Below are positions 4,491 to 41,124 of a stretch of DNA of 44,119 nt, piece after piece (the first letter of the stretch is position 1; every line of letters starts with the position of its first letter). Where the stretch lies: positions 1-44,119 of IMG/VR virus record IMGVR_UViG_3300037507_002302; one strand, given 5' to 3'. A program made the translations under genes and the position numbers. The stretch comes from a virus. Under the pieces are notes generated by a model, which was given only the letters and a program-made list of their open reading frames with translations, did not search any database and had not been told where the DNA came from.

Positions 4491-5411
4491 TCACTCTCCC
4501 CTCTGCCGGGCGGCCATGTCGGCCACCTGCTTGGTCCACCACCCGCGTCCGCCGCACTTCTTGCAGCCCGCGCCGTCGCACTTCTCGCAGACCGCGTGCG
4601 GGCGCTGGTGCTTCACGATCTCCCGAAGGTCGCGGAGCGGCTTGCGGTACTGCGCGCCGTCGGCCTGCCCAAGCCCCTCTCCGCCCGGCAGCCCAGCCAG
4701 TCGATCAAGCTCGTCCTCCACCTGGCTCGCCATCTTGCCAGCCGCGGTCATCGCCTCGGCGGTGGACCAGACCACAAGCAGGTTGTCGGGCACGGCTCGG
4801 CCCGTCGCGTCCTTCACCGCGGGCGCAATGGGTCTTGGCGCCGGCTCGGGCTCGGGCCCGGCTTCGCAGTGGGTCTGCCCATCGGGGAGGTCAAAGTTTT
4901 CATCGGGGTCTGGTGCCGAGGTGTCAACGTTGACACCCTGCGCCCTGGGCTCGGGCTTCGCCTTGGCTCGGGCCGCCACGATGCTGCTGACGAAGGTGTT
5001 GGACACGCCCACCCAGTCGGCGATCTTGCGGGCGGACCAGCCCTCGGCGTCGGGCGAGTCCAACACGGCCAGCACCGCGCGGCGCTTTTCCTCGAACGTG
5101 CGACGCAGGCCGTGGTTGCGGTTGCCGCTCGCGGCCACAAGCTTGGCCGTCTCGATGTCGCCGTCCTGAATGGTCGCGTTCAGGTACTCGATTTCGGCCA
5201 TCACCGCGGCGGCGTAGCGATGGTTGCCGTCACAGACCCACATTGTGCCGTCTTCGCCACGCACCACCATGATCGGCGGCCACGTCTTCCAGGCGTCGGG
5301 CGTCAGCGCCAAGCGCTCGGAGTATTCCGCCACCACCTCCTCGTCGATCGCTCGCATCATCACGTCGGCATGACGGGTCAGGTCAGCAACTCGCACGGCC
5401 TCGGTCTTCAC
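4491..5411 (-). CDS. ParB-like nuclease/DNA-binding protein with DnaJ-type zinc motif (306 aa)
   Basis: The N-terminal domain has the ParB/Srx signature DGNHRYAAA (61-69), followed by a helix-turn-helix-like segment (ARKIADWVGVSNTFVSSIVA). A Pro/Asp-rich linker then leads to a C-terminal zinc motif with CxxCxGxxCxxCxGxG spacing (about 275-290), as in DnaJ-type fingers. The start is a GTG at 5411 overlapping the 40-aa gene's stop (GTGA). ParB-like phage proteins act as nucleases, CTPase clamps or regulators; which applies here is unclear. The palindrome at 4922-4935 lies inside the linker codons (GVNVDT). Confidence 0.75.
   Translation of the reverse strand: MKTEAVRVADLTRHADVMMRAIDEEVVAEYSERLALTPDAWKTWPPIMVVRGEDGTMWVCDGNHRYAAAVMAEIEYLNATIQDGDIETAKLVAASGNRNHGLRRTFEEKRRAVLAVLDSPDAEGWSARKIADWVGVSNTFVSSIVAARAKAKPEPRAQGVNVDTSAPDPDENFDLPDGQTHCEAGPEPEPAPRPIAPAVKDATGRAVPDNLLVVWSTAEAMTAAGKMASQVEDELDRLAGLPGGEGLGQADGAQYRKPLRDLREIVKHQRPHAVCEKCDGAGCKKCGGRGWWTKQVADMAARQRGE
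4922..4935. promoter_or_regulatory. 14-bp palindrome site 1 (TGTCAACGTTGACA)
   Basis: Perfect palindrome, here extended to 16 bp (GTGTCAACGTTGACAC). It lies inside the linker region of the ParB-like gene. It is one of five exact copies in the genome, spread around the circle rather than grouped at promoters. It is probably a protein-binding site; the central CG resembles LacI-family operators and the distribution resembles stoperators or centromere sites. Confidence 0.8.
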
Positions 5412-5530
5412 GCCGCACCGCCTTCAGTGGCGCTGGGCGCTTCGACGCCTTCAAGCCGCTTCATGGCTTCCGCGTACACCTCGTCCCGCTTCGCCCGCTC
5501 CAGCATCTGTGTCACGTTGTTCATCGTCAT
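5408..5530 (-). CDS. Micro-protein (40 aa)
   Basis: The ATG at 5530 has a strong GGAGG seven bases upstream, and the stop overlaps the GTG start of the ParB-like gene. The protein begins MTMNNVTQMLERAKRDEVYA and forms one charged helix followed by an Ala/Ser/Gly tail. I recognise no function. The good ribosome-binding site and the tight coupling are the evidence that it is a real gene. Confidence 0.65.
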   Translation of the reverse strand: MTMNNVTQMLERAKRDEVYAEAMKRLEGVEAPSATEGGAA

Positions 5531-5594
5531 GGATTGGCCTCCAAACCGGCGCGAGATGTCTCCACCACGCGCCGGCGCGACAAGAGAGAGAGAA

Positions 5595-6368
5595 TCAGTT
5601 CGCGTCCTCGGGAACCTGCTCGACCACGCGCTCGGGCTTGCGCACCGTTCGGCCAGCCGTCTTGGGCGGCGTCGTCTGCACCGGCGCAGCCTTTGCCTCG
5701 TGAAGCTGGCGGAACTCAGCCAGCACCGTCTTCACGCGGTCGCTGATCGCCGCGGGCCAGTCGCCCACCATGCCGCCAACGGCGTGCGGGTCGGCCCCGT
5801 CTTCAAGCATCCTCGCGCGAAGGTCGTCAACGCTCAGCCCGAACTCGCGCAATCGCTGGTGGATGCGCTCGACCAACAGCACTGTGCCGTTCTCGATCTT
5901 GAGGCTCGAAAGAGTCTCGTCGCGGGACTCGTCGGCATCGGGGTCCGGCTCGTCGTCCGATGCCATGTTGAGCATGAGAAGCTGACCGTACTTGCGGGCC
6001 GAGGTCGTGGCCTTGAGGACCGCCTTCTCGATCGAGCCGTCAGCGCCGCCGCCCCAGGTCGTAATTTCGACCCACTGGCCCGACGAATGAACCGCTCGCG
6101 TCACCGCACGCACCGACACCACCTTCTGCACACCCTGCTGCTTGGTGGCAACGTCGGAGTGCTCCTTGGTCTCGGCAATGGAGGCCAGAACGTGGATGCC
6201 CTGCTCAGCCAAGTCCGCGGCGCTCTCGCGGATGATGTCCTGGATCTGCACGTAGTTGTACTTGTGGAACGCGTTCTTGCCGCTGCGCCCGATGACCTTG
6301 ATGGTCTTGCGGGCCTTGGCAAGTGCCGCCACCAGCTCGTTGATGTGATCAGAATGAACGATGCTCAC
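5595..6368 (-). CDS. erf-like: ERF-family single-strand annealing protein (257 aa)
   Basis: The N-terminal domain matches the ERF recombinase pattern: LVAALAKARKTIKVIGRSGKN, then FHKYNYVQIQDIIRESA, then GIHVLASIAETKE, with YG-QLLMLN near residue 150. ERF proteins anneal complementary single strands in phage recombination, as Red beta does. The start is a GTG at 6368 with GGAGG upstream, overlapping the exonuclease stop. The C-terminal third is acidic (ASDDEPDPDADES) and helical. With the adjacent exonuclease it forms a two-gene recombination system. Confidence 0.88.
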   Translation of the reverse strand: MSIVHSDHINELVAALAKARKTIKVIGRSGKNAFHKYNYVQIQDIIRESAADLAEQGIHVLASIAETKEHSDVATKQQGVQKVVSVRAVTRAVHSSGQWVEITTWGGGADGSIEKAVLKATTSARKYGQLLMLNMASDDEPDPDADESRDETLSSLKIENGTVLLVERIHQRLREFGLSVDDLRARMLEDGADPHAVGGMVGDWPAAISDRVKTVLAEFRQLHEAKAAPVQTTPPKTAGRTVRKPERVVEQVPEDAN

Positions 6369-7246
6369 CAGCCACCTCCGTCGATGACCACGCTGCCGCC
6401 CGTGGTGTTCGGTGCTTCCTCGAACTGCTTTCGTGCCCACAAGGGCAGGCCCAGCGTCTGGACTCCCGAGCCGTACCCGGGCCAAAGGTCGTGTTGACGG
6501 CACGCCTGGAATCGAGCCAGAAGCTCGTCAACCTGGACACGCGCGATGGCGCGAGTCTCGGGATCGAGCCGAACCAGCAGCGTCAGATAGGGCTCCACGC
6601 TCTCAACGAACACGAACAGCATGGGCTGCGGATCGACGCCGGCGCACGCCTTGATGCCGCGCTCGTACCACTCGGCTTGCAAGTGGTAGCCGTAGTTGTG
6701 GACGGCCTGCTCAACCGCCTTCGGATGGGCGGAAGCACACGTCTTCACGTCGATGAGCAGCCCGTCGGTCTCGCGGAATCCGTCAACCTGTCCCTTGGCC
6801 GCAACAGTCGAGCCGCGGCACGCCTCGCCCCAGAACATGGGCATCTCAACGTGAGTGAGCCCGCGAAGCACGTCGGCGGTCTCAGGGTCCGACCGCAGCG
6901 CGTGCTCCATGACCGCCACCTGCCCGGCCTGTTCAACCGTGATGACAGTCTTGCCGGCGGCCTCGTGGACGAACTTCTCCCACGCTGCCTTGCCTTCCTT
7001 GGTGCGACGGTCCACGTTCGGCGCCACCACGATCAGCTCGTCGTACTCGGTCGGACGCAGAAGCCGGGCGTGAAGCGCCGTGCCGAGCGCCATCTGCGGC
7101 GTCGGCTCGTCCTTGGTGCCGACCATAGCGGCGTTGACGTGCGCCATGGACTTGAGCCCGTGCTTCAACGTGCTGATGTTCAGCGCGTCGATCTCGCGGT
7201 ACTTGGCGCGAAGGTCCGGTCGGAACTCTCCGAACGTCGTAATCAT
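6365..7246 (-). CDS. PDDEXK (YqaJ/RecE-like) exonuclease (293 aa)
   Basis: The motifs of phage lambda-exonuclease/RecE-type PDDEXK nucleases are in order: GTALHARLL (55-63), GQVDGF with the metal-binding Asp (about 155), IDVKT with the Asp and Lys (166-168), and YGYHLQAEWY (about 185-194). The enzyme would resect double-strand ends to give single strands for the ERF protein. The ATG at 7246 overlaps the stop of the 28-aa gene, and the stop overlaps the ERF start (GTGA), so all three are translationally coupled. Confidence 0.88.
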   Translation of the reverse strand: MITTFGEFRPDLRAKYREIDALNISTLKHGLKSMAHVNAAMVGTKDEPTPQMALGTALHARLLRPTEYDELIVVAPNVDRRTKEGKAAWEKFVHEAAGKTVITVEQAGQVAVMEHALRSDPETADVLRGLTHVEMPMFWGEACRGSTVAAKGQVDGFRETDGLLIDVKTCASAHPKAVEQAVHNYGYHLQAEWYERGIKACAGVDPQPMLFVFVESVEPYLTLLVRLDPETRAIARVQVDELLARFQACRQHDLWPGYGSGVQTLGLPLWARKQFEEAPNTTGGSVVIDGGGW

Positions 7247-7329
7247 GCCGCACCTCCGCCCGCCGGCGCGTCGAACAGAGGCATGGCGTGCGTTGCATCC
7301 GTCAGACGAACTCGCGTGTATTCCTTCAT
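7243..7329 (-). CDS. Micro-protein (28 aa)
   Basis: The ATG at 7329 follows an AAGGAG ribosome-binding site at proper spacing, and the stop forms ATGA with the exonuclease start. It begins MKEYTRVRLTDATHAMPLFD and ends in a short Ala/Gly tail. It may be a real small protein or a translated leader that delivers ribosomes to the exonuclease start. Confidence 0.55.
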   Translation of the reverse strand: MKEYTRVRLTDATHAMPLFDAPAGGGAA

Positions 7330-7346
7330 GCTGGTCTCCTTGGGGT

Positions 7347-7815: not shown

Positions 7816-8430
7816 ATGAACACTGAAACCAGCAAGCAGGCCGGGCTTGGCGCGTGCGTTCGGCGGCTGCGCGAGCGCGACGGCATCGGCATGAATGAGC
7901 TGGCGCGCAAGCTCGGCTGGGCTCCGGCCTTGTTGAGCAAACGCGAGCGCGGTCTGCTCCGCATCAAACCCGAGCACCGAGCGCAGATTGCCAAGGCGCT
8001 GGGCATGACGCTGGCCGAGCTGGATCGGGCTTGGAAGCAGGGAGCTTTGCCAGCGGGCGAGGCGTCCGCGGGTTCGCCGGATCACTGGGCCGGGTTTGAT
8101 GACGGCGGCGTGGGCGTGGCCGAGCCGGGATCAAATCTGGCAACGATCCGTGTTCGTGGCGATTCGATGGAGCCGACGCTGCTTGACGGCGACGTGTGTC
8201 TGGTGCGCATGATCGAACAGACTGAGCGCGTGGCCGACGGCTCGGTGGTGTGTGCCTGGCTCGGCAACGATGCGGCCACTCCGGGCGGCATGTTTGCCCG
8301 CTGGTTCGGTGTTGGCGCTACGGTGGTCGAGCTTGCCAAGGACAACCGCGCCTTTCGCAACCTGACCGTCAGCCGAGTCGCGGTGGTCCGGCTTGGCGTG
8401 GTCGTCGAACGTCGCACAAGGAGCCTGTGA
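7816..8430 (+). CDS. XRE/S24 LexA-like phage repressor (204 aa)
   Basis: The N-terminal residues 8-72 form an XRE helix-turn-helix (MNELARKLGWAPALLSKRER). The C-terminal peptidase S24 domain has the nucleophile motif RGDSMEPTL (Ser117). At the position where LexA and lambda CI have their catalytic Lys (VKRL, FKKL), this protein reads FARW (Ala161), so self-cleavage may be lost. It is one of only two plus-strand genes and faces the early operon across inverted repeats, as expected for the lysogeny repressor. There is no evident Shine-Dalgarno, so the mRNA may be leaderless. Confidence 0.9.
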   Translation: MNTETSKQAGLGACVRRLRERDGIGMNELARKLGWAPALLSKRERGLLRIKPEHRAQIAKALGMTLAELDRAWKQGALPAGEASAGSPDHWAGFDDGGVGVAEPGSNLATIRVRGDSMEPTLLDGDVCLVRMIEQTERVADGSVVCAWLGNDAATPGGMFARWFGVGATVVELAKDNRAFRNLTVSRVAVVRLGVVVERRTRSL

Positions 8431-8824: not shown

Positions 8825-9910
8825 TCAGGACGGGACTTGCGATGCTCTCTCCATCGACATGTCGATGGCTTTGGGGCGAACTTGGGGCACTGCGCCCGTG
8901 ACGCGGGCTAGGGTCTCGGGGAGGGTGGTGTGATAGTGTGCCGCGGCCACGGTGGGGTCGTGCCCAAGCCACTTGCACACGTCCATCGCTGGCAACGTCG
9001 CCAGCCAGTCGGACTCACAGGACTTGCGCAGGGTGTGGAACGGCTTGCCGTAGGGCTCGATGCCGGCCCGTGCCCGCAGCGCCTCCATCTGGCGGTAGGT
9101 GTTGTTGCCGCCGATCGGAGCGACGGACTGCTCGCCGGCGGGCAGTCGGTGCTGCACAGATTCCAGGATCTCGGCGAGCCGTGGCGTGATGGGAACCAGC
9201 CGGGTGCGCTTCTTGGTCGTCTGTGCGCCTTCGTGTCGAACCGTGAGGGTCCGATGCACCAGGTTCACGTCGGCCCAGGTCAGCGACCGGATCTCGTTGA
9301 TGCGAAGCCCAGCGAACCGTGCGAGAGCAATGGCGGCCTGCCACTCGGGCCGTGCGGTGGCGTCGATCAGCTTCTCGGCCTCGCTGGTCGGCAGATACCG
9401 CCAGGGCACGTCGGTCTTGACCATCGACCGGGGCTCGTGGTCAACCGGGTTGGCGGGCAGCGTGCCCAGCTTGACGGCTGAACCAAGGACGGCGCCGAAG
9501 CGCATGAGGTTCCCGCGCACCGTGTTGGTGGCGAGTTCTTCCGCCTGCATGGCCGCGCGCCAGGCCGTGATGGCGGCCCTGCCGATGCGGTCGATCTGCG
9601 TGGTCTCGCCGAAGTGTGCCAGCGTGCGGGCCTTGGTCTTGCCGTACCCGTCCATCGTCTTGGCGCTCAGCCCGACCGCCTCGTGCTGCTCCCACCACTT
9701 CCACCATGCGGCAAGGGTCGGCGATTTGCTGCCGACGGAACGCGCCGTGGGGTTGAGCAGGTGCTGCCGCGCGATCTCGTCGCACAGGCGGTTGGCTTGG
9801 GCTTTGCTCAGCTCGGACCGTGAGCCGAGGCTTTTCTTGTGGCGCTTGCCTGAGTCGTCGGTCCACTCGGCACGCCAGTAGTCGCCGTTGATGGCGAGGT
9901 TTACTCGCAT
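8825..9910 (-). CDS. int: Tyrosine-recombinase integrase (361 aa)
   Basis: It has an N-terminal AP2-like/arm-binding region (NGDYWRAEW), a SAM-like core-binding domain (about 60-150) and a C-terminal catalytic domain. The catalytic residues are visible: Arg in GLRINEIRSL (about 203), His-x-x-Arg in HTLRK (292-295), His in WLGHD (317) and the Tyr in AAAHYH (about 326). The start is the ATG at 9910 with GAGG upstream; the gene overlaps the preceding stop by ten bases. The gene ends beside attP, with arm-type repeats in its last codons. Confidence 0.92.
   Translation of the reverse strand: MRVNLAINGDYWRAEWTDDSGKRHKKSLGSRSELSKAQANRLCDEIARQHLLNPTARSVGSKSPTLAAWWKWWEQHEAVGLSAKTMDGYGKTKARTLAHFGETTQIDRIGRAAITAWRAAMQAEELATNTVRGNLMRFGAVLGSAVKLGTLPANPVDHEPRSMVKTDVPWRYLPTSEAEKLIDATARPEWQAAIALARFAGLRINEIRSLTWADVNLVHRTLTVRHEGAQTTKKRTRLVPITPRLAEILESVQHRLPAGEQSVAPIGGNNTYRQMEALRARAGIEPYGKPFHTLRKSCESDWLATLPAMDVCKWLGHDPTVAAAHYHTTLPETLARVTGAVPQVRPKAIDMSMERASQVPS
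8851..8868. repeat. Perfect 18-bp palindrome in the 3' end of int
   Basis: The sequence ccatcgacatgtcgatgg is a perfect palindrome between the attP core and the right-arm repeats. It may bind Xis, an IHF-like protein or the repressor, or it may form an mRNA hairpin near the end of the int transcript. It occurs once in the window. Confidence 0.6.
8871..8891 (+). repeat. Paired integrase arm-type repeats, right arm
   Basis: TTGGGGC (8871-8877) and TTGGGGCACT (8882-8891) have the same orientation and 11-bp spacing as the left-arm pair. They lie inside the C-terminal codons of int. The symmetry about attP supports a binding function. Confidence 0.6.
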
Positions 9911-10218
9911 GGGTGCGCGCCTCGCTGGATGCACCGTTTGATCGCCGCGCGGATTTCGGCCAGCATGACGTTTCTGCACGGCTCAGCGCCTAGGGCGGCG
10001 ACTGATTCTGCGGCAAGGCCGGAGTCGGCCCCAAGGCGGACCGCCAAGGCGCAAAGCTGATCGACGGGACACAGGAACACTTCGGTTCGCAGCAAGTGAA
10101 GATTGCGCCAGCTGATTTGATCAAGCTTTGGCATTGGTGGCATGCCGGAGGCCGAGCGTGTGTAGTCGAAGACTGTCCCACCAGACTTCAGGCGTCGAAC
10201 GTATGGCTGCGGGCTCAT
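9901..10218 (-). CDS. Hypothetical protein upstream of integrase (105 aa)
   Basis: The ATG at 10218 follows AAGGGGTGA, and the TAA stop lies inside the start region of int. The protein begins MSPQPYVRRLKSGGTVFDYT and includes a Cys-containing helical half (CPVDQLCALAVRLGADSGLA). I recognise no family. A basic protein just before int might assist recombination, but no HTH is evident. Confidence 0.65.
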   Translation of the reverse strand: MSPQPYVRRLKSGGTVFDYTRSASGMPPMPKLDQISWRNLHLLRTEVFLCPVDQLCALAVRLGADSGLAAESVAALGAEPCRNVMLAEIRAAIKRCIQRGAHPCE

Positions 10219-10450: not shown

Positions 10451-11458
10451 TTAGGCGGGCTTGTCGAGGACGATCAAGGCGGTGTGGACGCTGGTGCGGC
10501 GGAGCGCATCGGGCCGATCGAAAGCGTCTGGCGGAAGCTGCATGATGTACCCTCCCAGCTTGGCGAACCACTCTTGCCACTCGGTCGACCTTCGATCCGA
10601 TCGGAACGTGGGGCCGACGCTGATGATCGACACAAGCCGACCGCCTGGGGCAAGCCACTCCCATGCCGTGCGGGTGTGCTCGATCTCCTGGCCGTTCTCA
10701 AACGGCGGATTCATGACGATGATGTCGGGCTCACAGGATTGGGGCTGCTGGAGAAAGTTGGCCTGCTCCACGCGGATCAAGTTGGCGTTGTCGAGGCGGG
10801 CCGTGCGGTCTTCGGCGAGCTTGGCTAGCTCGTGGTGCAGTTCGTAGGCCGTGGCGCGGACGTGCTTGGCGCCCGCGCGCCGTGCTGCTTCAACCGCGGC
10901 GAGCAGCAAACAGCCGGCGCCGCATGACGGCTCCAGAATGTGCCGAACGTCCGGCCCAAGGTCCGCGGCATCGGTCACGATCTTGGCAATGCTCGGGGGC
11001 GTCGGCCAGAATCCTTCGGGCTCGGCAAGGGCCATGCGTGCCATGCGGTGGCGCAGTTCGGCCTCTTGTTCGTGGGCCGACGGTGGCGCGCTGATGAGTT
11101 GGGCGAGTAGGCGCCGGGCCTGCTCCATCTCTCTGGCGCCGGCCAATCCAGCCCGCTCCGCGGCTTGATCCGTGGGCGTGCTAGTGTCGTTGCGCATCCA
11201 CCAAACCACTTGATCGAGCGCGGTGAGGGTGACGATCTTGTTCAGCGGCCTCGGAATCGAGTTGGCTTCCACGCACCGCGCCATGGCCTCGGCGGCTTGG
11301 CGAAGCTGCTCCAGCTTCTTCGCGTCTTCGATCTGGCTGCTGACGATTCTGAGGCGTCGCGGCGTGATCCGTTGTCGGCTCGTGCCCGAGTTCATCAGGG
11401 CGTGGGCCTTGCGTGCGGCGTTAGCAGCGTGCTCGCGCCAGCGTTCGGCGGTGGGCAT
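10451..11458 (-). CDS. N6-adenine-type DNA methyltransferase (335 aa)
   Basis: The C-terminal 190 residues hold the methyltransferase: GFWPTPP (149-155), the SAM motif LEPSCGAGCLL (175-185), an acidic motif near YELHH, and the catalytic MNPPFENG (249-256) of type I/gamma-class adenine methylases. The N-terminal 140 residues are helical and lack a recognisable domain; they may serve in target recognition or restrict access. Stand-alone phage methylases usually protect against host restriction. It belongs to the leftward accessory operon with the AAA+ ATPase. Confidence 0.82.
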   Translation of the reverse strand: MPTAERWREHAANAARKAHALMNSGTSRQRITPRRLRIVSSQIEDAKKLEQLRQAAEAMARCVEANSIPRPLNKIVTLTALDQVVWWMRNDTSTPTDQAAERAGLAGAREMEQARRLLAQLISAPPSAHEQEAELRHRMARMALAEPEGFWPTPPSIAKIVTDAADLGPDVRHILEPSCGAGCLLLAAVEAARRAGAKHVRATAYELHHELAKLAEDRTARLDNANLIRVEQANFLQQPQSCEPDIIVMNPPFENGQEIEHTRTAWEWLAPGGRLVSIISVGPTFRSDRRSTEWQEWFAKLGGYIMQLPPDAFDRPDALRRTSVHTALIVLDKPA

Positions 11459-13239: not shown

Positions 13240-14477
13240 CGCGTGGTGCTCCCGTCGATGGCCGCGGCCCAGAAGGACAGGGCGCGCGCTTTGTCGAGCG
13301 CCTGTTGATCGGCGCCGGCGAGGATCTGAGCGGCGGTCTCGTGTTGGGTCCAGCCGGCGGCGAGCATGTCCGCGGCGGCGGCGAACATGCGAGTAGTTAC
13401 GTGCCACGTGGGCGCCCAAAGGGTTCGGAGCTCCCAAAGGTGCAGGGCGAGCGGTCCGGCCAAGCGCTCCTCAAGTTCGCGCCAGTAATCGACGCGCAGA
13501 TAGCGGCCGGCGAATCGGTCGCGCACCGATTGATCAAGCCTGGAACGGGTCAAGGTTCCGCCCGCGTTGCCGGCGCCGGTGGTGTTGTCGGCGACGATGA
13601 CGACCGTGTTGACGTGCCGGCGAATGACACGCCGCGCGGGGTCGTGGTGGCGGCCGATATGAAGCTCTCCATTGGCCAAAGCGTTGTTGACGGCGAGGGC
13701 CAAGCTATCCGATGCGCTCAGTTCATCCAGCAGGATGACGTGTCCGTTTTCCCAAGCGTGCACGAAAGCGCTTTCAGTCCAGTGGCCATCGGCCGCGGCC
13801 GATCCGTAGAGCGCCGCGGGCGTGGTCGTCGGGCTCACGGCGAGTTCGGTGTAGGGTCGATCCAGCGCCTCGGCGAGCGTGCGGGCGAGCACCGATTTCC
13901 CGGTGCCGGGCGGGCCGTAAAGCCATGCATTGCGGTTGCTGGGCGCGGCGGCGGTGACGATTCGGAGCAGTCGGGCAAGCTCGGGGCGGGCGTTGTGGAT
14001 GGTGACGGCGGGGGCGTTGTGGTGCTCGATGCGCAGCGTCTGCGGGGCTCGGTTCTCGATGGCGTCGATGCGGGCGACAAGCTGGCCAAGGTGGTGGCCG
14101 AGCTGGTCCGCGGCGGTGCCGGTTGTCTGCTCAAGCTGGTTGACGCGCCCGGCGACAAGCCGGAGCGAATCGCGGGCGGAGTCGAGTTCTCCGGCCAGTT
14201 CTGCGAGCTGGTCCGCGGTGGCGCCGGCCTGCTGCTGAGGAAGTGCCGCGGCGACGGCGCCGGCGATGGCCTGGGCGAGTGCCGCGGGGTCAAGGGCGGG
14301 CGCCGGTGCGGGCGTGGGCCTGGTCCGCGGCGCCGGCGGCGCTTCGGGGCTCGGGGTGTCAACGATGACGGGCGCCGGGCTCGTGGTGCCGGCGGTGGTG
14401 CCGCGGCGCCGGTGAAGTCCGGGAAGTCCGGGGATAGGTTCGGCGTGGTCGGGTTGTCCGGTATACAGGGCGGTCAT
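13236..14477 (-). CDS. CobS/MoxR-like AAA+ ATPase (413 aa)
   Basis: The first 145 residues are Pro/Ala-rich and then coiled coil (ARDSLRLVAGRVNQLEQTTG). The AAA+ domain has Walker A GPPGTGKS (188-195), Walker B HVILLDEL (246-253), and arginine-rich sensor sequences (RSRLDQSVRDRFAGRY). The FVHAWENG-HVILLDEL arrangement is typical of the CobS/dynein-like (MoxR) branch. Such ATPases remodel or load partner proteins. The neighbours are its 345-aa partner and an adenine methylase. The natural target in this phage is unknown. Confidence 0.85.
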   Translation of the reverse strand: MTALYTGQPDHAEPIPGLPGLHRRRGTTAGTTSPAPVIVDTPSPEAPPAPRTRPTPAPAPALDPAALAQAIAGAVAAALPQQQAGATADQLAELAGELDSARDSLRLVAGRVNQLEQTTGTAADQLGHHLGQLVARIDAIENRAPQTLRIEHHNAPAVTIHNARPELARLLRIVTAAAPSNRNAWLYGPPGTGKSVLARTLAEALDRPYTELAVSPTTTPAALYGSAAADGHWTESAFVHAWENGHVILLDELSASDSLALAVNNALANGELHIGRHHDPARRVIRRHVNTVVIVADNTTGAGNAGGTLTRSRLDQSVRDRFAGRYLRVDYWRELEERLAGPLALHLWELRTLWAPTWHVTTRMFAAAADMLAAGWTQHETAAQILAGADQQALDKARALSFWAAAIDGSTTR

Positions 14478-16093: not shown

Positions 16094-16107
16094 TGTCAGC
16101 GCTGACA
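16094..16107. promoter_or_regulatory. Variant palindrome site (TGTCAGCGCTGACA)
   Basis: Perfect 14-bp palindrome that differs from the repeated TGTCAACGTTGACA by one symmetric base pair (A/T to G/C). The preserved symmetry suggests a bound dimer. It lies in the gap, 344 bp from an exact copy. Confidence 0.55.
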
Positions 16108-16450: not shown

Positions 16451-16464
16451 TGTCAACGTTGACA
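16451..16464. promoter_or_regulatory. 14-bp palindrome site 2 (TGTCAACGTTGACA)
   Basis: Exact copy of the repeated palindrome, one base past the stop codon of the last late gene. It is one of only two exact copies in intergenic DNA; the other is at 41111-41124. Confidence 0.8.
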
Positions 16465-21700: not shown

Positions 21701-24353
21701 GCGCCGCCAGCTTGTTGAGCGCCTGAGAGAGCGGGCTGCTCGGGTTGATCTGCTCGGGCAGGGCAGTCAGTGCGTTGGCGAGAGCCTTGTTGTTGAGCGC
21801 CGACAGGGCGGTGTAGGTGTTGGTGAACAGGACCTGCTGCGGGTGCTTGGTCGCGTGCAGCGTGTGCCCGGCCTGAGCGAACCGCTCTTGAAGGTCCAGA
21901 AGCAGCTTGTGGTTGGCGTCGCCGGGTCGGTGCAGAACGGCCACGGTCTGGCTGGCCTGCGGAACGTCTCGGCGGTTGCGGAGCACCGAGCCCGTGCGGC
22001 GGGTCTTGACCGAGGTGGCGGGGTACTGCTGGTCGAGCTTCATCAGCTCGGCGCGGCTCTCGTACCACGCGACGGCAAGGGGCTTGAGGTCTCGCGCCGC
22101 GGGCGCAGAGAAGGCCGGGTCCTTGATCGACGCGGCGCCCATTGCCATGCGGAAGTCGTCTCCCAGGTCCTCGTCGAAGCTCTTGGGCAAGCCCGTGGGC
22201 GACCGATAGGGCGCGGGCTCGGAGCGCGCCAGGTCGGCACGGTTGGCAGCGTCGCGGGCGCGGATGTCGTCGATCTCGATGCCGTACTGCCGCGCAAGGT
22301 CTCGCAGCTCGGCGGGCTCCAAAGTGCCGTCGCCCCACGCGACAAGGGCCTCCGTCAGTCGCGGGTCGCCTTCTGCTTCCAGCATCTCGGCGGTGTTCTT
22401 GATGGCGTCACGCTCGCCGATGGTGATGTCCGCGTTGTCGCCGTCCGCAGCGCCCTTGGCCGCGTACATCCGGCTGATGCTGTCTTGCAGCTCGCCGATG
22501 ATCTCGCCATCGCCCAGCCTGATGGAGTCTTTGTCGGCGACGATCTCTCGCACCGTCCACGCGATCGGCTTCCATGGCTCGCCAGCCATGCCGGTCTTTT
22601 CTTCGACGACAGCCATGTCGTCAGTCCAAACGAGCCGGTAGTCCTGTCCGGCAATCTTGAAGGTGGTGCCGTCCGGGAGCGTAGTAGCGTCGTAGGCCAG
22701 CACCTTGCCCTTGAACTTGTTCTTTCCGCGCACGCCTTCAATCAGCCTGGCGTACAACGGCGCGATGGCATCGACTTCGCCGCGAACAAAAGTCTCTTTC
22801 GCAATGTCGGCGATGGCGTCGAGCGTCTGCTGAATGACCCGCTTCCACTCCTTCGGATTGAGCCCGCCGCCGGAGTAGCCCCTGTTGGTGTACGGGTTTT
22901 TCACCCCAACCTTGGTGGCGTTGAGCAGCGAGTTGGTGCGCTGCTCAAGCTTGACGGCCAGGTCAAAGGCTTCATCGCCGAACGCGGCAACGAAGTCCTC
23001 GAAGGTGTTGCGACCCCGGGTCGAGTCCGTGAGTGTGGGCACAATCCCCGTGCCTTCTAGGCGGCGCCGAAGCTCCGGCATGTTCTTTTCGGTCGCAGAA
23101 AAGACGTAGGTGAGCGCTTCGTCGGCGCCGGCAGGGCGAACCCCCGATCCGTCGTCTTCCACGCTCTTGACAATGCCGTCTAGCTGCAGGTAAATCGCGT
23201 CGGCCTCGTATGACGCGGCGTTCTTGACCTGAAAAAGCAGATCGGTCATCTTGAGCGAGATGGGGCGTGTCGGCGGAGAAACCTCGGTCGCCCTAGGCCT
23301 GTCAACGTTGACACCCTCGGCGGTGAGCAGGGGGTCAGAGGCGAACTGGTCAGGGAACTCGGCGGCAAGCTGCTCGATCGTCGGAAGAACGGGCTCGTCG
23401 GGCACGGCTGCCGGAGCTTCGGTTTGTGCAACCTGCACAGGCTCGGGAGTGGGGGTCGGCTCGCTGCTGACCATCCAGTCTTCGGGACGGCCCTGCGGCG
23501 CTGCGGTCGGAGCAACCCGCGCGGGCTCGGCGGCCAGAATCGTCATGCGCTGCCGCTGCTCGGCAAGACGACGATCAAGGAACAGCTCCTGATCGGTCAG
23601 TCGCTGAGCTTCGTTGGCGAGACGTTCAGGGGGCAGGATTCCGACGGGCCTGCCGTCCGCGCTGATGAGCGAGCGGGGCAGAAGCTGCGCGGCGCGCTCG
23701 ACGCCAATCAGGGCGCCAGCAACGCCGCCACCGAACAGAGCACCGATGCCGGCGTTGGTGAGATCGTCTTGGAAGCCGCGGGGGTCCGCCGCGGGCATGA
23801 ACACGCCTTGGGCCTTTTGAAAGAGCACGTTGCCAACCGCGGCCTCGGCTGCGTTGGAGCCGATGCGGGCGGCCACTGAGCCGGTGGCACCGAAGAAGCC
23901 CGGGATCAGGAAGTTCTCACCCTGCGCGATTCCGGCGGCCAACTGGGTGTACCACCGCGCGTTGTCGATGGTGCGGGAACGCTCGTTGTGCTGGCGAGCC
24001 CGGAACAACTCGTAGGTGAACTCGCGCTCGTTGCGGGCAAAGTCGAACTGGCCCGAGTCGGCCAGCTCGATGACCTCGGGGTCGTTGAACAACCACGGGG
24101 TGCGCTTGATGTAGTCCACGGGGTTGAAGCTGGGATCGGGCTGGCCGAACCAGTCGGAAAGCATCGACCGGCCGGCCAGGCTCTGCACGACCGTGGAGCC
24201 GATGCTGTTGAGAAACGACGCCTCCCACGCCTGAACGAACCCCGTGGGCTCCGTGCCGGGCTCCGCGTCCGGCGCGGGCTGCTGCTGCAAGGCAGAGCGA
24301 GTCCGCCGGTACTCGGCAAGCCAGTCGGCGTTGGACAGTCCAAGCGTGCTCAT
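18783..24353 (-). CDS. Giant internal virion/DNA-ejection protein, gp16-like (1856 aa)
   Basis: It sits where T7 gene 16 would be, after gp14- and gp15-like genes. At 1856 aa it is longer than T7 gp16 (about 1318). The N-terminus (FNPVDYIKRTPWLFNDPEVI, FDFARNEREFTYELF) resembles internal-core proteins of T7-like phages. I see no lytic transglycosylase ES/GLMQ motif in the N-terminal region, where T7 gp16 carries it. Gly/Ala-rich segments (GIGALFGGGVAGALIG) could insert in membranes. Such proteins are ejected first and form a channel for the DNA. A palindrome copy lies at 23300. Confidence 0.85.
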   Translation of the reverse strand: MSTLGLSNADWLAEYRRTRSALQQQPAPDAEPGTEPTGFVQAWEASFLNSIGSTVVQSLAGRSMLSDWFGQPDPSFNPVDYIKRTPWLFNDPEVIELADSGQFDFARNEREFTYELFRARQHNERSRTIDNARWYTQLAAGIAQGENFLIPGFFGATGSVAARIGSNAAEAAVGNVLFQKAQGVFMPAADPRGFQDDLTNAGIGALFGGGVAGALIGVERAAQLLPRSLISADGRPVGILPPERLANEAQRLTDQELFLDRRLAEQRQRMTILAAEPARVAPTAAPQGRPEDWMVSSEPTPTPEPVQVAQTEAPAAVPDEPVLPTIEQLAAEFPDQFASDPLLTAEGVNVDRPRATEVSPPTRPISLKMTDLLFQVKNAASYEADAIYLQLDGIVKSVEDDGSGVRPAGADEALTYVFSATEKNMPELRRRLEGTGIVPTLTDSTRGRNTFEDFVAAFGDEAFDLAVKLEQRTNSLLNATKVGVKNPYTNRGYSGGGLNPKEWKRVIQQTLDAIADIAKETFVRGEVDAIAPLYARLIEGVRGKNKFKGKVLAYDATTLPDGTTFKIAGQDYRLVWTDDMAVVEEKTGMAGEPWKPIAWTVREIVADKDSIRLGDGEIIGELQDSISRMYAAKGAADGDNADITIGERDAIKNTAEMLEAEGDPRLTEALVAWGDGTLEPAELRDLARQYGIEIDDIRARDAANRADLARSEPAPYRSPTGLPKSFDEDLGDDFRMAMGAASIKDPAFSAPAARDLKPLAVAWYESRAELMKLDQQYPATSVKTRRTGSVLRNRRDVPQASQTVAVLHRPGDANHKLLLDLQERFAQAGHTLHATKHPQQVLFTNTYTALSALNNKALANALTALPEQINPSSPLSQALNKLAAQANRVLGVTSVQGRNSNRAVLTGKPDQIKALMASLWGDLSRLVFGGTTDIQRGSAAAPGTFETNLSVENYRSILQGLIQKADWEAEQVVHSIPKRIAAGEAMPDGITNNWALNKVGDWFGITKQKLAKQAFDLYRISEDIEAGFELPQNLPNFPPILKDFAEPYRKMFKEMAQYMEDSGMIEPGTISSREWYLPAMFDVDKVQRNEKRFIETMIESFEQAESMNQVPGAAERLPPGAELVNPALLADIRENEIKAEALFEKDQQAIANAGQPTLMGQQPPSFSAPLNSAYRRLTGKNLPNPKIGDKINPEFVKAVEAMRMMDLPPDVRIIYTDMRGSFYRSVAQSVYKNLTTEAERIGTADILEAPFRSAADPERLRKLRVPRGLLMEFMVDDVTGLAHRYNRILSGRVASHMAVAYSDWKYRTLKDGTPVKNAKDATLWSIELLESLRDLTLSTERFADSPTSVPAMGADYTKYAEEVSNLYNNQIQNIRTDVVFPLDLIEGRDPSSPVGGEFFPWLTDRALQPFALSGLFNSGIIAIINDVTNTTMLAITRPRMLKVLVNTIKGLRASSNADLWALGVAAQDTNVNLQRFGMDAFGPSFALTSNPGLVRSVSTGVAATADALPRVGAKISGFNLFTHFARRFDQVVQVQVFLEAARDIAAGTATKTMNTYERARWNSYGLTNARAQQILTYTYNNGTLHMGKHAGKRINAVYTYDQFLSRIGKDPVLPGFDGWKATPQGRKLAAQTTANLTKITTAENIITSRVGNGPRLALGKAGWAGRFVVTFLNRFSWAFSDQKLRRLAQMPWDKFITHAGMMIAFGALTQAVRDEISGRNSLEKTAEQWETNPVGMMYAAVENSGMLGWLSRPFGWLDSVGAGPGTLLGSPLTQNVNRRTYDNRYRAAVGLLGPAAEFTSRWVDPGNWATMRKILSGKPVTARERENLFKALPYNNNIYLRMARTYLDFPFPQPNR
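23300..23313. promoter_or_regulatory. 14-bp palindrome site 3 (TGTCAACGTTGACA)
   Basis: Exact copy inside the ejection-protein gene, in a Pro/Glu-rich linker (EGVNVDRP) where amino-acid constraint looks low. It is 6.8 kb from site 2 and 11 kb from site 4. Confidence 0.8.
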
Positions 24354-32259: not shown

Positions 32260-33443
32260 AGGGGGCCTCCACGGCGCAGTTGAATGGGACCAGTGCGGGG
32301 CGCGTGGGCCCCGGCGGGAAGCTGATACAGATACCCGGCGTTGATGCTGCGAAGGCGGAAGTCGGCGATGGCCGCGTTGATGAAATCGTCTTCGCCTGCT
32401 GCCTGCTCGTGCAAGCTGGGCCAGTCGCCCAAGCCCGTTGAAGCCGTGCCTCCGCGGACGCGGTTGCCTGCCAGCAAGCAGTTGAGTCGTCCGCTGGGGT
32501 TGGCGACCGCCGTGGTCACGTCAACGAAGTAGTTGTTGCAGACCACGCCGCCTTCGTCGAGACTGGCGTTCTGGAAGCGCACGCCCTCGACAAAGCCTCG
32601 CACGGTGTTGAACAGGAAGTCGATTGGCCCTGAGTTGGTCCCGCGCAGCTCGCACGCGCCGATCGCCGAGCCGCCGCCGATGAACTGGTTGTACGCCACC
32701 AGGTCCGCGCCGTCGCTGCTGTTGGGCGTAAACACGCCACGGGAAAGCAGCGTGGTCAGGCGGCAGCCGAGCACGCGGGTGTTGCCGCTCTGGCTCTGCA
32801 CCGCGCCGACGTTGCTTGTGACCGCGTCCGCGCTCGACGCGTCGCACCGAAGGTCGCAGTTGATGAGTCCCGAGGCGTTGCCGAGACGAACGGCCGAGGC
32901 GTTGGTCTGGAGGCCGACCACGGTGTTCCGGACATCGCAGTTGACCATGTACGCGGCGTTGCTCGTAAGGTTTACGAGGTTGTTGGCGACTGCGCCCTCG
33001 ATCCTCACGCAGTCCACCACGAGATTGGCGACTTGGAGATCCAGATTGTTCCCGCCGAACTGCAACACCGGGTAGCGCGAGGTGTCCAGGGGCCCGAGGC
33101 CCCCGAGCGTGCGGCCCAGGTACGCATCGCTCACGGCGTTGGCGCCCGTCGGCGGCGTCTGCCAGTAGCCGCGCAGGATCACCGGAGATCCGTTCTGGGC
33201 CGTGATCGTGCGGAGCGTCCGGAAGGCGTTGATCGTGTAGGTGCCGGCCTTGATGAGCACCAGGACCCCGTCGGTGGAGCTGGGGTTCAGGCCCGCCCCG
33301 CCCAGCCCCGCGCCCGCCGCGCCCGTGGTTGCAAAGAGCACCTGATTGATCGACCACGCGCCGGTAGCGCCGCCAACCGTGGGGGTCGTGCCGTCGCCAA
33401 GACCGTCGGCGTTTTGGTCGACATATCGAACGAGAAGGGCCAT
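32256..33443 (-). CDS. Right-handed beta-helix tail spike/fibre protein (395 aa)
   Basis: After a short N-terminal segment (MALLVRYVDQNADGLGDGTT), the protein consists of repeating short strands with Asn and small residues (LVNLTSNAAYMVNCDVRNTV; RLGNASGLINCDLRC; VGAVQSQSGNTRVLGCRL), typical of pectate-lyase-like beta-helices. VLIKAGTYTI is the usual first rung. It probably recognises or degrades a host glycan. A catalytic triad cannot be assigned. Its position beside tail tubular A is unusual for T7-like fibres, which come after gp16. Confidence 0.75.
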   Translation of the reverse strand: MALLVRYVDQNADGLGDGTTPTVGGATGAWSINQVLFATTGAAGAGLGGAGLNPSSTDGVLVLIKAGTYTINAFRTLRTITAQNGSPVILRGYWQTPPTGANAVSDAYLGRTLGGLGPLDTSRYPVLQFGGNNLDLQVANLVVDCVRIEGAVANNLVNLTSNAAYMVNCDVRNTVVGLQTNASAVRLGNASGLINCDLRCDASSADAVTSNVGAVQSQSGNTRVLGCRLTTLLSRGVFTPNSSDGADLVAYNQFIGGGSAIGACELRGTNSGPIDFLFNTVRGFVEGVRFQNASLDEGGVVCNNYFVDVTTAVANPSGRLNCLLAGNRVRGGTASTGLGDWPSLHEQAAGEDDFINAAIADFRLRSINAGYLYQLPAGAHAPRTGPIQLRRGGPL

Positions 33444-33770: not shown

Positions 33771-34327
33771 CACAGGCCTCCAATCAGCTTGGTGACGATC
33801 TCGACGATGCCGGGATAGCTGGCCTCCAGCGCCTTGACCTCGGCCAGCCGCGCATCGCGCTGCGCCTCGGTCATGCTCTGCCAACCCGTCACGAGCACGC
33901 GGGCTAGCGGTTCGAGCGCCCGCGTCGGTTCGCTCGCGCCCAGCGTGATCCGCAGGTTCTTGACCATCAGCGCCCGCGTCTTGGGCTCCACGCTGATCTG
34001 ATCGGCCTGGATCGTCGAGTCGGTGGCCAGCACCGCCGCGAGTGACCCGAACTCGGCCACGTGCCAGTGGATGCCCTGCACGACGCCGCTGCTCAGGACG
34101 CCGCGCGCCTCGCTCTCGCTCAGGGCGAGGTAGCTGGTGGTGCCCGCGCCCCCGGCCTGGACGTTCGCCCCGAGCTCCGCCGGGGTCACCGTCAGGGTGT
34201 TCGTCGCCGGCACGCGGACGCGCGTGGCGTCGGCCGTCTGTTCGATGCCGGGACCGACCGGCGTGCAGGCTGTCAACGTTGACACCGCCAGCAGAACAGA
34301 AACACAGGAAGCCTTGTGAGTGCGCAT
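33770..34327 (-). CDS. Phage lipoprotein, possible o-spanin or lysis/entry protein (185 aa)
   Basis: A basic N-terminus, a hydrophobic segment and the lipobox LTA-C (Cys21) form a lipoprotein signal peptide. The mature part has no transmembrane helix. At 185 aa it is longer than typical o-spanins. The gene before the membrane-anchored coiled-coil protein could form a spanin pair with it, or it might be a superinfection-exclusion lipoprotein. The palindrome at 34271-34284 encodes part of its signal peptide (VSTLTA). Confidence 0.6.
   Translation of the reverse strand: MRTHKASCVSVLLAVSTLTACTPVGPGIEQTADATRVRVPATNTLTVTPAELGANVQAGGAGTTSYLALSESEARGVLSSGVVQGIHWHVAEFGSLAAVLATDSTIQADQISVEPKTRALMVKNLRITLGASEPTRALEPLARVLVTGWQSMTEAQRDARLAEVKALEASYPGIVEIVTKLIGGL
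34271..34284. promoter_or_regulatory. 14-bp palindrome site 4 (TGTCAACGTTGACA)
   Basis: Exact copy inside the lipoprotein signal-peptide codons, a part of a protein that tolerates many sequences. It is 6.84 kb from site 5 and 10.97 kb from site 3. Confidence 0.8.
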
Positions 34328-38172: not shown

Positions 38173-38182
38173 GGAACGCTAC

Positions 38183-39808
38183 TCACGGGGAAACGCCCTG
38201 CTGAGTCGCCTGCGTGGCGACGGCTTGGGCGAGGGATTGCACGGTTGCCGTGGTCGAGTCAGCGGCTACCTGAGCGGCCATGGCGCGGTCGCGTTCGGCC
38301 TGCACTTCTTCCTCGGACTTGACCAACCCGGGCGCGTCGATGCGGGCCGAGCGCGCCAGGATGTCCACAAGCACCGACGTGTTGAGACGGGCCAGGGCCT
38401 GTTCGCCAAGGGCGGCCACAGCCTGCGTGAACGAAATGGCGCGGGTCGCACGCTCAGCCTGTGCCAGCGCCGATGCGCCAGTCAGGATCTGCATGTCGGC
38501 AACCAGCTCGTTGATCGGTGGCATGAGTCGGGCCTTCACCGCCTGAAAAACGGCGCGGCGCAGCATCGGGATCTGCTGCTGGTCGGAGATGTTCGCGTAC
38601 ACGCCTCCGGTGGCGCCTTGAAGTTCCAGCGCGATGCGCTCGATCTGTGTGGCCGTCACGCGCTCGCCGGTGGGCTGCACCGCGGACTCCAGCAGGAACG
38701 ACCGCGCGATGCGGGCCTGCAACGAGCCCATGATGTTGGCCAGGATGCCGAAGTCGCCACCCTTCTGGCTCTGCCACAGGGCGATGTCCTGCACCTGACC
38801 GCCGACCACGCGGCCACCAAGCACCACGCCGCCGGGCGGGCTTTGGAGGTCGCGCGTTTTGATGTTGCTGGCCTGGTCCTTGAACATGAGCACGAGCGAC
38901 GCCACGTGCGCGATGTCCAGCGAGCGCTCGGTCATTTCGTTGAACGAGCGAAGGTCGCCGATGCACAGGTCCACGAACCCGCGGCCATAGTGCTGGCCCG
39001 GCGCGATCGAGTAGGCCGTCGAGAAGAACGGGCTGATCGCTGGATCATCGACGCGCTCGGTGAGTTCTCGCCCGTTGATCTCCTGCGTGATGAGCCATCG
39101 CTTGCTGTACGGCTGCCACTCGACCGCGGTGTAAAGCGGCAGCACGCGCTCGGCGTAGGTCTTGCGACGGCACGCCTCGATGTCGATGCCGGCGTCTTCC
39201 GCGTCCTTGGGGCTCAGCGTCAGCGGATCGACCTTCTCGCAGATGGCGTGCATCACCACCTCGCCAGCGTCGTCGCGGGTCGTCACGTACTGGTCGCGGC
39301 GGAACACACGGATGCGGAAGTCATCGCGCATGTGCTCCAGCGTCTCGCCGGTGACAAGGATCTGCTCAAGCGCCTGGCGCTTGCGGGTCAGAAACCCGCT
39401 GGGCAGACGGTCGCGCATGTCGTGAGACGTGCCGGCGCGCTCGATGAGCGACGCCACCACCTTCTCGCACACTTCCAGGGTCGCGTCGAGCTGGCGCATC
39501 CGCGCGACGTGCTCGGGCGAGTTGTCGGTCAGAAACTTCTTGGGGATCGTGAACGTGAACCACGGCTGGCCCGGCGGGAACAGACTGAGCAACATGCGGC
39601 CAGCGATGTTGGTGAGGCCGGTCGTCCCAAGAGACTGGAAGCTCTCCGGGGTCTTGTCGTCTTCGGTGTAGTTCTCGGGCGGCAGCACCATCGGGTTGGT
39701 GAGCAGGGCGCAGAGTCTGGCGCGCTTGAGCACGGTGTCCCGCAGAGCTTCGCCCTGGCGGTACAGGTCCGCGATTCGGGCTTGGCCTGGCGCGATGGCG
39801 TACATCAT
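38183..39808 (-). CDS. Portal (head-tail connector) protein, gp8-like (541 aa)
   Basis: Signature segments of T7 gp8-type portals are present: RARLCALLTNPMVLPPENYT, GLTNIAGRMLLSLFPPGQPW, DYxxE-like VFRRDQYVTTRDDAG, and LRSFNEMTERSLDIAHVASL. Length matches gp8 (536 aa). The C-terminal region is Gln/Ala-rich. The start overlaps the preceding stop, and the protein forms the 12-subunit DNA channel bound by terminase and tail. Confidence 0.92.
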   Translation of the reverse strand: MMYAIAPGQARIADLYRQGEALRDTVLKRARLCALLTNPMVLPPENYTEDDKTPESFQSLGTTGLTNIAGRMLLSLFPPGQPWFTFTIPKKFLTDNSPEHVARMRQLDATLEVCEKVVASLIERAGTSHDMRDRLPSGFLTRKRQALEQILVTGETLEHMRDDFRIRVFRRDQYVTTRDDAGEVVMHAICEKVDPLTLSPKDAEDAGIDIEACRRKTYAERVLPLYTAVEWQPYSKRWLITQEINGRELTERVDDPAISPFFSTAYSIAPGQHYGRGFVDLCIGDLRSFNEMTERSLDIAHVASLVLMFKDQASNIKTRDLQSPPGGVVLGGRVVGGQVQDIALWQSQKGGDFGILANIMGSLQARIARSFLLESAVQPTGERVTATQIERIALELQGATGGVYANISDQQQIPMLRRAVFQAVKARLMPPINELVADMQILTGASALAQAERATRAISFTQAVAALGEQALARLNTSVLVDILARSARIDAPGLVKSEEEVQAERDRAMAAQVAADSTTATVQSLAQAVATQATQQGVSP

Positions 39809-40014
39809 CCGGGGATGCTCAATCCGGTCGAGTTGCGGTTGCTGTCGGGCGTGCTCGGCGGCTCGATGAGCAGCGAGTACCTGCCTCGGCGGTTCTTGCG
39901 AAGGTCGCGGCGCTGCCGTGCCAGCTCAGAGGAGTTGGTCGTGTCCTCCGAAGGCGGCGGGGGAGGAGGCGGGGGGGGATCAGGAGATCCGCCCCCGAAG
40001 ATTCCGCCATCCAT
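39805..40014 (-). CDS. Small Gly/Pro-rich protein before portal (69 aa)
   Basis: Begins MDGGIFGGGSPD followed by nine prolines, then a basic segment (LARQRRDLRKNRRGRYSLLI) ending in SNRNSTGLSIPG. Short proteins with a GGxFGG-poly-Pro start and a final glycine-rich motif occur just before portals in many podoviruses and are thought to be minor tail or head-assembly proteins. The start codon overlaps nothing upstream and the stop overlaps the portal ATG. Confidence 0.7.
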   Translation of the reverse strand: MDGGIFGGGSPDPPPPPPPPPSEDTTNSSELARQRRDLRKNRRGRYSLLIEPPSTPDSNRNSTGLSIPG

Positions 40015-40026
40015 GTGTGCCTCCGT

Positions 40027-40242
40027 TCACTGCGGCTTGCGGGCCGCGTAAGCCATGTGCTCAACCAACTCGCGCACGCCAACCAGCTTGGCGTAGGCGA
40101 GTCGCCCGGCCTCGGTGGAGACTTCCTCAACGCTCGGCATCCTCTGCGGATACAGCGCGTTGAGCAGGTCCACCACGCCCTCAAGCGTCGCCTGCGGGAT
40201 CTCGTTCCACGCGCGTTCGTGAGTCGAACTCTCCGATGTCAT
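40027..40242 (-). CDS. Small hypothetical protein (71 aa)
   Basis: The ATG at 40242 follows AGGAG; the protein overlaps the C-terminal codons of the papain-like gene by 62 bp in another frame. It is acidic and helical (NEIPQATLEGVVDLLNALYP; EVSTEAGRLAYAKLVGVREL). No domain recognised. A start further inside would remove the overlap but lacks a ribosome-binding site. Confidence 0.6.
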   Translation of the reverse strand: MTSESSTHERAWNEIPQATLEGVVDLLNALYPQRMPSVEEVSTEAGRLAYAKLVGVRELVEHMAYAARKPQ

Positions 40243-40753
40243 ACCCCTGGCTCCTGCCCCAGTCCCACAACGCCTGCGGCGTGGTGACGTGACGAGGAAC
40301 CTCGACACCCGACCACGCCAGATATCGCTTCGCCACGGCCACGCAGTCGTTGGACGCGACGCGGCCCCGAGTCAGCCACGCGGCGAGCGTCCGCCATGGC
40401 CCCTTGTGCCCGACCTTGACGTGCCCGCGAAACGCCAGCGGCCTCGGCATCGGAACCACGATGTACGTCAGAAGCGCCGGATGCCTGACCACGTAGTGCC
40501 GGTATGGAAACCACGCATCGCCCCACGACGTGATCTCCAGCACGGCAAAGCCGTCAGAAAGCGCCACGTGTGTCGGGTCGCCGCGGCCCAGCGTGCGAAT
40601 CAGCCATGGGTACAGCGTGTTCCGAAGCCACCAGTGGGGCTTGCGAAGAACGAACGACCACCAAGGCCGGCGAGCCTTGCGACGCTGCGGCGGATGGCTG
40701 GAGAACAAGAGCACGCAAGCAAACTTGCTCGCGGCACTCGCGCGATTGGTCAT
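40181..40753 (-). CDS. Permuted papain-like (NlpC/YiiX-type) protein, candidate endolysin (190 aa)
   Basis: A His in DPTHVALSDGFAVLE (His62, Glu73) comes before a Cys in ASNDCVAVAKRYL (Cys137), the order seen in circularly permuted NlpC/P60-type thiol hydrolases. The N-terminal 55 residues are basic and aromatic. It is the first gene after the intergenic region downstream of the RNA polymerase. No other cell-wall hydrolase was recognised in the genome, so it is a candidate endolysin; a virion-maturation or other thiol-enzyme role is equally possible. Confidence 0.6.
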   Translation of the reverse strand: MTNRASAASKFACVLLFSSHPPQRRKARRPWWSFVLRKPHWWLRNTLYPWLIRTLGRGDPTHVALSDGFAVLEITSWGDAWFPYRHYVVRHPALLTYIVVPMPRPLAFRGHVKVGHKGPWRTLAAWLTRGRVASNDCVAVAKRYLAWSGVEVPRHVTTPQALWDWGRSQGYDIGEFDSRTRVERDPAGDA

Positions 40754-40912
40754 CTGCGAACGGGGACCGCTGATCGCTCAAGGCTGCGAACAACACCGCG
40801 CCTGCGACGCAGACGGCAACACCTCGATGCCATGTTCAAGCACCGACCATTCAACACACCCGAACGAATCTCACCGTTCGGGCGCGAGCCAGGAGACCAG
40901 TCCAGGCATCAG

Positions 40913-40941
40913 AGGGTACCAGACCCATCCGTGACCGTCAA
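40913..40941 (-). promoter_or_regulatory. Candidate sigma70-type promoter before the late genes
   Basis: The minus strand has TTGACG (40941-40936), a 17-bp spacer, and TACCCT (40918-40913). The -35 matches five of six consensus bases; the -10 is weak. It lies 160 bp before the papain-like gene. Confidence 0.35.
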
Positions 40942-41066
40942 GCCCAGTGTTCATGGGTAGATCCGGGCGGAGGGAGACCCCACCGCTTTGGATGAGGTCT
41001 AGCCGTGTCCACGGGTGAGTCCGGGCTTTCGGGTTGCTTGCCGTTGAACCATTTCGGCTGGAACAT
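40938..41066 (-). CDS. Doubtful small ORF (42 aa)
   Basis: An ATG at 41066 opens MFQPKWFNGKQPESPDSPVD and ends in STHEHWA. The codons in the first half have the high third-position GC of neighbouring genes, and the same frame stays coding-like upstream to the palindrome. There is no Shine-Dalgarno, and the frame lies in a region with strong inverted repeats. Confidence 0.25.
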   Translation of the reverse strand: MFQPKWFNGKQPESPDSPVDTARPHPKRWGLPPPGSTHEHWA

Positions 41067-41085
41067 CAGCCCGCTGCACGGCAAG
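41037..41085. repeat. Long inverted repeat with inner hairpin
   Basis: CTTGCCGT (41037-41044) pairs with ACGGCAAG (41078-41085), and inside it GGCTG (41056-41060) pairs with CAGCC (41067-41071). Together they could fold as a two-helix RNA in the leader of the late genes. Confidence 0.5.
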
Positions 41086-41110
41086 TTGAGCGCGTCGTCG
41101 GTGCGGCGGG

Positions 41111-41124
41111 TGTCAACGTTGACA
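41111..41124. promoter_or_regulatory. 14-bp palindrome site 5 (TGTCAACGTTGACA)
   Basis: Exact intergenic copy, extended to 16 bp by a flanking G/C pair, located 185 bp past the RNA polymerase stop codon. With site 2 it brackets the late operon, which could mean operators at both ends, although sites 3 and 4 are inside it. Confidence 0.8.

Follow-up and report, generated by a model that had tools for sequence, protein, structure and literature searches.

The stretch of viral DNA analysed here (IMG/VR record IMGVR_UViG_3300037507_002302, positions 1–44,119; 44,119 nt in all, referred to as the window) carries a 14-bp palindrome, TGTCAACGTTGACA, in five exact copies at 4922, 16451, 23300, 34271 and 41111. 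The first of these lies inside a gene for an orphan ParB-like protein. A recount confirmed the five positions given in a first-pass annotation of the sequence, as well as the symmetric variant TGTCAGCGCTGACA at 16094. When up to three mismatches are allowed, the window contains nine matches, against a mean of 1.24 and a maximum of 5 in dinucleotide-shuffled sequences, and TGTCAACGTTGACA is its only repeated 14-bp palindrome, the six others being single-copy. The ParB-like gene, the helicase gene next to it and the sites, to which no strand is assigned, are the following:

4491–5411, minus strand: ParB-like protein gene (306 aa), with an N domain of ParB/sulfiredoxin type, a helix-turn-helix (HTH) and a linker that is disordered; predicted to bind the palindrome.
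2587–4248, minus strand: superfamily 2 (SF2) helicase gene (ResIII/DEAD), downstream of the ParB-like gene; Pfam ResIII match at 7.3e-32.
4922–4935: site 1, TGTCAACGTTGACA (as GGTGTCAACGTTGACACC), inside the ParB-like gene, at the start of the part that follows the HTH (the linker), coding for VNVDT.
14357–14370: possible weak site, TGTCAACGATGACG, with 2 mismatches; may be a chance match.
16094–16107: symmetric variant, TGTCAGCGCTGACA, in the gap downstream of terL.
16451–16464: site 2, TGTCAACGTTGACA, in the gap downstream of terL.
23300–23313: site 3, TGTCAACGTTGACA, within a gene of the virion region for a protein of 1856 aa, coding for GVNVD.
34271–34284: site 4, TGTCAACGTTGACA, 43 nt into a gene, coding for VSTLT of a signal-peptide-like N terminus.
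41111–41124: site 5, TGTCAACGTTGACA (GGTGTCAACGTTGACACC), in the gap downstream of the RNA polymerase gene; kept in contig L005.

Three of the exact copies are thus within genes (4922, 23300 and 34271), as annotated before, and two are in gaps (16451 and 41111). Site 4 is encoded with the rare codons TCA, TTG and ACA, and contig L005, which is near-identical to the window (99.99% over 9.4 kb), carries the copy at 41111. The earlier proposal that selection acts on the DNA inside these genes proved right. Its circular spacings are arithmetically correct (11529, 6849, 10971, 6840 and 7930 nt), but a closed circle is unsupported, a terminal repeat having been looked for at the window ends and not found.

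Scanning viral contigs for the exact 14-mer gave mostly single, chance-like matches, together with an unrelated phage of 43% GC with four copies in 8.9 kb (L020) and three contigs that have a ParB-like homologue (L055, L064 and L113). In L064, the motif is inside the ParB-like gene directly past the HTH, like site 1 of the window. The exact 14-mer is absent from 79 further ParB-like loci, which at first spoke against the ParB-like protein as the binder, until it was recognized that many of the relatives have a different, lineage-specific palindrome in the same place. Among the matches listed, 162 ParB-like genes, no two of them identical, were compared; they come from viral as well as bacterial contigs. 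A palindrome score of at least 7 is reached in the 160 nt past the HTH in 83 of them (51%), against 4.9% in synonymous-codon shuffles, 1.9% in the part of the same genes encoding the N domain and 3.7% in 160-nt stretches taken at random from the ParB-like loci; a score of at least 10 is reached in 40 (25%), against 0.12% in synonymous-codon shuffles. These palindromes start at a median of 18 nt past the HTH; site 1 corresponds to them in position. The linker is predicted to be disordered and can therefore accommodate a constraint on the DNA. At least eight loci of the family are present on the chromosome of Planctomycetes bacterium syqfu (L407, L409, L412, L421, L424, L440, L460 and L469); their in-gene palindromes differ where found, and the loci may be prophages or domesticated copies. 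Neither an in-gene palindrome nor a family was found in the more distant ParB-like genes of Vibrio phage CHOED, Aeromonas phage MQM1, MW202898 and MT835519, or in Serratia phage Eta. The orphan ParB-like gene of the latter phage is of another family, adjoining beta-clamp and helicase genes, and its record (L489) has annotated 17-bp repeats at 10010–10026, 11145–11161 and 33375–33391.

The sequence of the in-gene palindrome varies by lineage and covaries with the HTH of the gene in which it resides. Covariation was measured as mutual information, with 200 permutations, in 53 representatives less than 75% identical in the HTH region; this test is independent of how code groups are named. Counting residue −4 as the X of the HTH motif V-S-X-x-F-V, residue −4 covaries with base 3 of the half-site (z 14), residue −14 with base 2 (z 13), residue −3 with base 4 (z 11.7) and residue −2 with base 7 (z 15.5), none of them matched in the permutations. 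At residue −4, Asn or Pro goes with T at base 3 (11/11), His, Lys or Arg with G (21/22), Asp or Glu with C (7/7) and Gln with A (5/8), so that this simple code fits 44 of 48 cases, while shuffling gave a mean of 15 and a maximum of 28 in 5000 trials. Arg at −14 is accompanied by G at base 2 (30/31) and Asn or Ser by T (11/12); Phe at −2 is accompanied by C at base 7 (28/30) and Thr by A (12/13). The window and L064 proteins are just about 24–35% identical, share the code residues Arg, Asn, Thr and Phe, and have the same half-site, TGTCAAC. Aligning G-V-S-X with G170-K171-S172-R173 equates residue −4 with residue 173 of Caulobacter ParB, where crystal data have Arg contacting G, and the corresponding Gln of Noc contacting A (PMC7383237). 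By this alignment, two rules of the code, Arg–G and Gln–A, agree with the published ParB and Noc structures.

Other lineages disperse their own palindrome over the genome as well. In G001, TGGTAACGTTACCA is found as five exact copies within 36 kb, MW202545 has four copies of ACTAGTCnGACTAGT, two of them inside its ParB-like gene, and G007, L192, L321 and L392 have three or four copies each of their own site. The pattern TGKNAACGTTNMCA occurs 14 times in the whole contig G028, and 8, 7, 6 and 5 times in G027, G036, G030 and G029, respectively; the reversed control gave none. Relative to sequence length, such lineages have 5 copies in 36 kb, 8 in 45 kb and 14 in 57.6 kb. Of 163 loci searched de novo, 20 have repeated palindrome families, whereas simulated sequences had them in 0.6% of cases. 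Across six contigs, 30 of 45 dispersed sites are in genes, where they often fall in segments rich in proline or of low complexity (VETLPP, GNVAT, GNVTS). In five of the six contigs, a site resides in the ParB-like gene. The HTHs of most dispersed lineages obey the code (SHVFV with TGGTAAC, SHTFV with TGGCAAC, SHPYV with TGGTAAC, and SDTFV and SEKMA each with C at base 3). At orthologous sites of phages that are about 90% identical, both arms have changed together, GTCAACGTTGAC in L020 and L202 versus GTAAACGTTTAC in L016 and L053. Five consecutive sites of L473–L474 (G028, 31397–48747) are nearly evenly placed, 4.0–4.6 kb apart.

Two further repeated families, along with others, were set aside as sites of the ParB-like proteins, since they depart from the HTH code. 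Three loci (L171, 7644–8252; L417, 14180–14759; L467, 14112–14753) each have three to four copies of TTGTCCGTCGGACAA, some 4 kb past the ParB-like gene on its downstream side, perhaps as operators of another regulator. GTTAAATTTAAC is present four times at a spacing of about 110–160 bp (L317, 9312–9726; L318, 11344–11757); this arrangement is iteron-like and may mark a replication origin.

The protein encoded at 4491–5411 matches the ParB-like partition protein PHROG 1033 (E 4.9e-17), which was found in all 19 members. Its AlphaFold model has a predicted local distance difference test score above 90 across most of the N domain and the HTH, and of about 50 in the linker, and the best Foldseek matches are ParB, Noc and KorB (E 7e-07 to 5e-05, probability 1.00). 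The predicted fold of the N domain and HTH places the protein in the ParB/Noc/KorB superfamily. The HTH includes the segments S126-A-R128-K-I-A and V136-S-N138-T139-F140-V141. Of 159 homologous loci, 132 have more than 3.5 kb of sequence past the ParB-like gene, and 114 of the 159 encode an SF2 helicase on its downstream side, on the same strand and no more than 3.5 kb away. In L064 (8576–9820) and L190 (10076–11146), the ParB-like domain seems to be fused to an adenine methyltransferase domain, judging from MT-A70 and Dam matches among the aligned members.

From this covariation we predict with high confidence that the palindrome is bound by the orphan ParB-like protein which the phage itself encodes. 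The site would be read by the recognition helix, a dimer reading two 7-nt half-sites TGTCAAC through its HTHs, with Arg128 predicted to pair with base 2 (G), Asn138 with base 3 (T), Thr139 with base 4 (C) and Phe140 with base 7 (C). One site is inside the protein's own gene, so that protein and site would travel together, and the four other exact copies would mark the remaining genome; such in-gene placement may keep the two linked through recombination. If it behaves like ParB, Noc and KorB, the protein would be expected to load at the marked sites as a nucleoside triphosphate (NTP)-dependent clamp and to cover or organize the phage DNA, with the SF2 helicase of the adjoining gene as its probable partner. 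Binding in vitro and NTP-gated loading would be expected, and the protein would play a part in replication, organization, segregation or long-range control of the phage DNA. We consider the chances even that its role is to load at the scattered sites and organize the phage DNA.

The first-pass annotation had listed the repressor, the ParB-like protein and a host LacI-type regulator as candidate binders without ranking them. The in-gene palindromes, the covariation and the code-obeying dispersed families strongly support the ParB-like protein, while nothing was found in support of the other two. Phages are known to use scattered repressor sites, and this one encodes an integrase and a CI-like repressor, the S24/XRE protein of 7816–8430, which might bind the copies as stoperators and shut off transcription in the lysogen, in the manner of mycobacteriophage L5. 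Across homologous phages, however, the site follows the ParB-like HTH residue by base, a copy is usually inside the parB-like gene and most dispersed sites lie within genes; the stoperators of L5, besides, are asymmetric. These points make stoperators very improbable. Operators of a host LacI-type regulator, carried by the phage, are even more so. The form TGNNANCGNTNNCA does fit operators of LacI/CcpA type, but this is a resemblance of form, because homologous loci use sites outside it (TGGAATCnGATTCCA, TGCGTCTTAGACGCA): loci in Proteobacteria, Planctomycetes and other phyla have non-LacI forms that track their own ParB-like HTH. No LacI gene was found among the window genes scanned.

The main alternatives to loading and organizing keep the same binder and differ in its use. 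The protein could be chiefly a long-range transcriptional silencer acting from scattered sites, like KorB of plasmid RK2, a use that we consider less probable than that of a genome organizer. Its fold matches KorB, which also belongs to the ParB family and has operators at multiple positions on a mobile element, and RK2 KorB silences by sliding, at a distance, from sites 45 bp to more than 1 kb away from promoters (PMC11790492); sites inside genes would suit such a sliding clamp. Unlike the phage sites, which are mostly within genes and not concentrated between them, the KorB operators (OB) are positioned relative to promoters and KorB works with KorA, a partner for which no counterpart has been identified here. 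Alternatively, the sites could be centromeres that segregate a plasmid-like prophage, as do the four inverted repeats (IR1–4) bound by the ParB protein SopB of phage N15, whose genome likewise has several ParB sites in the form of inverted repeats (PMC7205306). The ParB-like fold and the multiple inverted-repeat sites speak for such a partition role. N15, in contrast, has SopA and is a linear plasmid prophage, while here an orphan ParB-like gene occurs with an integrase, which leads one to expect chromosomal lysogeny; no ParA-like domain was found among the window genes scanned, the neighbours of the ParB-like gene included and part of the structural genes covered. We consider partition improbable.

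Several observations weigh against the assignment of the palindrome to the ParB-like protein as a loading site. About half of the homologues have no strong in-gene palindrome. Four loci are exceptions to the code (L243, L323, L352 and L393), the code groups were named on the data to which they were fitted, and shared ancestry was reduced solely by the choice of representatives. Dispersal is not general among phages of the family: in most of those that have an in-gene palindrome, the sequence examined contains no other copy with one mismatch or less, and some repeated palindromes in ParB-like loci bear no relation to the HTH. The window protein has no match in a Pfam search, its profile also matches sulfiredoxin, the best PDB sequence match, and a sulfiredoxin-like DGNHR motif stands where the canonical ParB box would be. 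NTP binding by this protein, assumed by analogy, is putative.

Among the closest known systems are ParB–parS and Noc with its binding site (NBS), represented by Caulobacter ParB and Bacillus Noc, with which the family shares the fold and a palindromic site predicted to be read by the recognition helix of the HTH, including the rule for residue 173. Noc sites, like the phage sites, are scattered, in their case over the chromosome. In contrast to these systems, the phage-family site is 14–15 bp long and differs in sequence between lineages, one copy is in the linker of the parB-like gene itself, the neighbour is an SF2 helicase and the window is without a detected ParA. Kaljevic et al. (2025) survey a broad class of orphan phage proteins of the ParB-CTPase fold, including methyltransferase fusions like those of L064 and L190 (PMC12704722). 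The parts of that survey consulted describe no DNA sites for the phage proteins; sites and a residue-to-base code are added here. Text searches of the open literature, a scope that leaves subscription papers and preprints aside, turned up no mention of the sites described here, no sites located inside the gene itself and no comparable code for phage proteins, and we regard their novelty as provisional.

The phage of the window is T7-like, a podophage that encodes a single-subunit RNA polymerase, a T7-type terminase, an integrase and an S24 repressor; further genes encode an ERF recombinase and a DUF3799 nuclease, in addition to the ParB-like protein and the SF2 helicase. The relevant coordinates are:

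41309–43750: T7-like RNA polymerase.
8825–9910 and 7816–8430: integrase and S24 repressor, the S24/XRE repressor being at 7816–8430.

The co-occurrence of an RNA polymerase of T7 type with an integrase and an S24 repressor suggests a temperate lifestyle for this podophage, which is far from known ones. Megablast of positions 1–25000 against phage records gave no match, the best counterpart of the RNA polymerase in the phage collection shares about 31% identity with it, and a search for it in viral contigs returned the near-identical L005 as the sole match.

Taken across the family, it seems somewhat probable that the ParB-like proteins of phages and prophages form a large, diverse family whose members carry their own site in their own coding sequence, linked to the HTH by a residue-to-base code, and that many lineages copy this site over the genome, mostly in genes, marking their own DNA for the protein and its partner helicase. 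The comparison yields candidate DNA sites for the orphan ParB-like proteins, a group widespread in phages, and the code should predict the sites of many members from sequence alone. The function becomes directly testable, in terms of which DNA is bound, which partner is involved and what the effect of site removal is. The family may also represent a natural set of possibly orthogonal protein–DNA pairs, and it suggests how a mobile gene can stay coupled to its binding site when it recombines.

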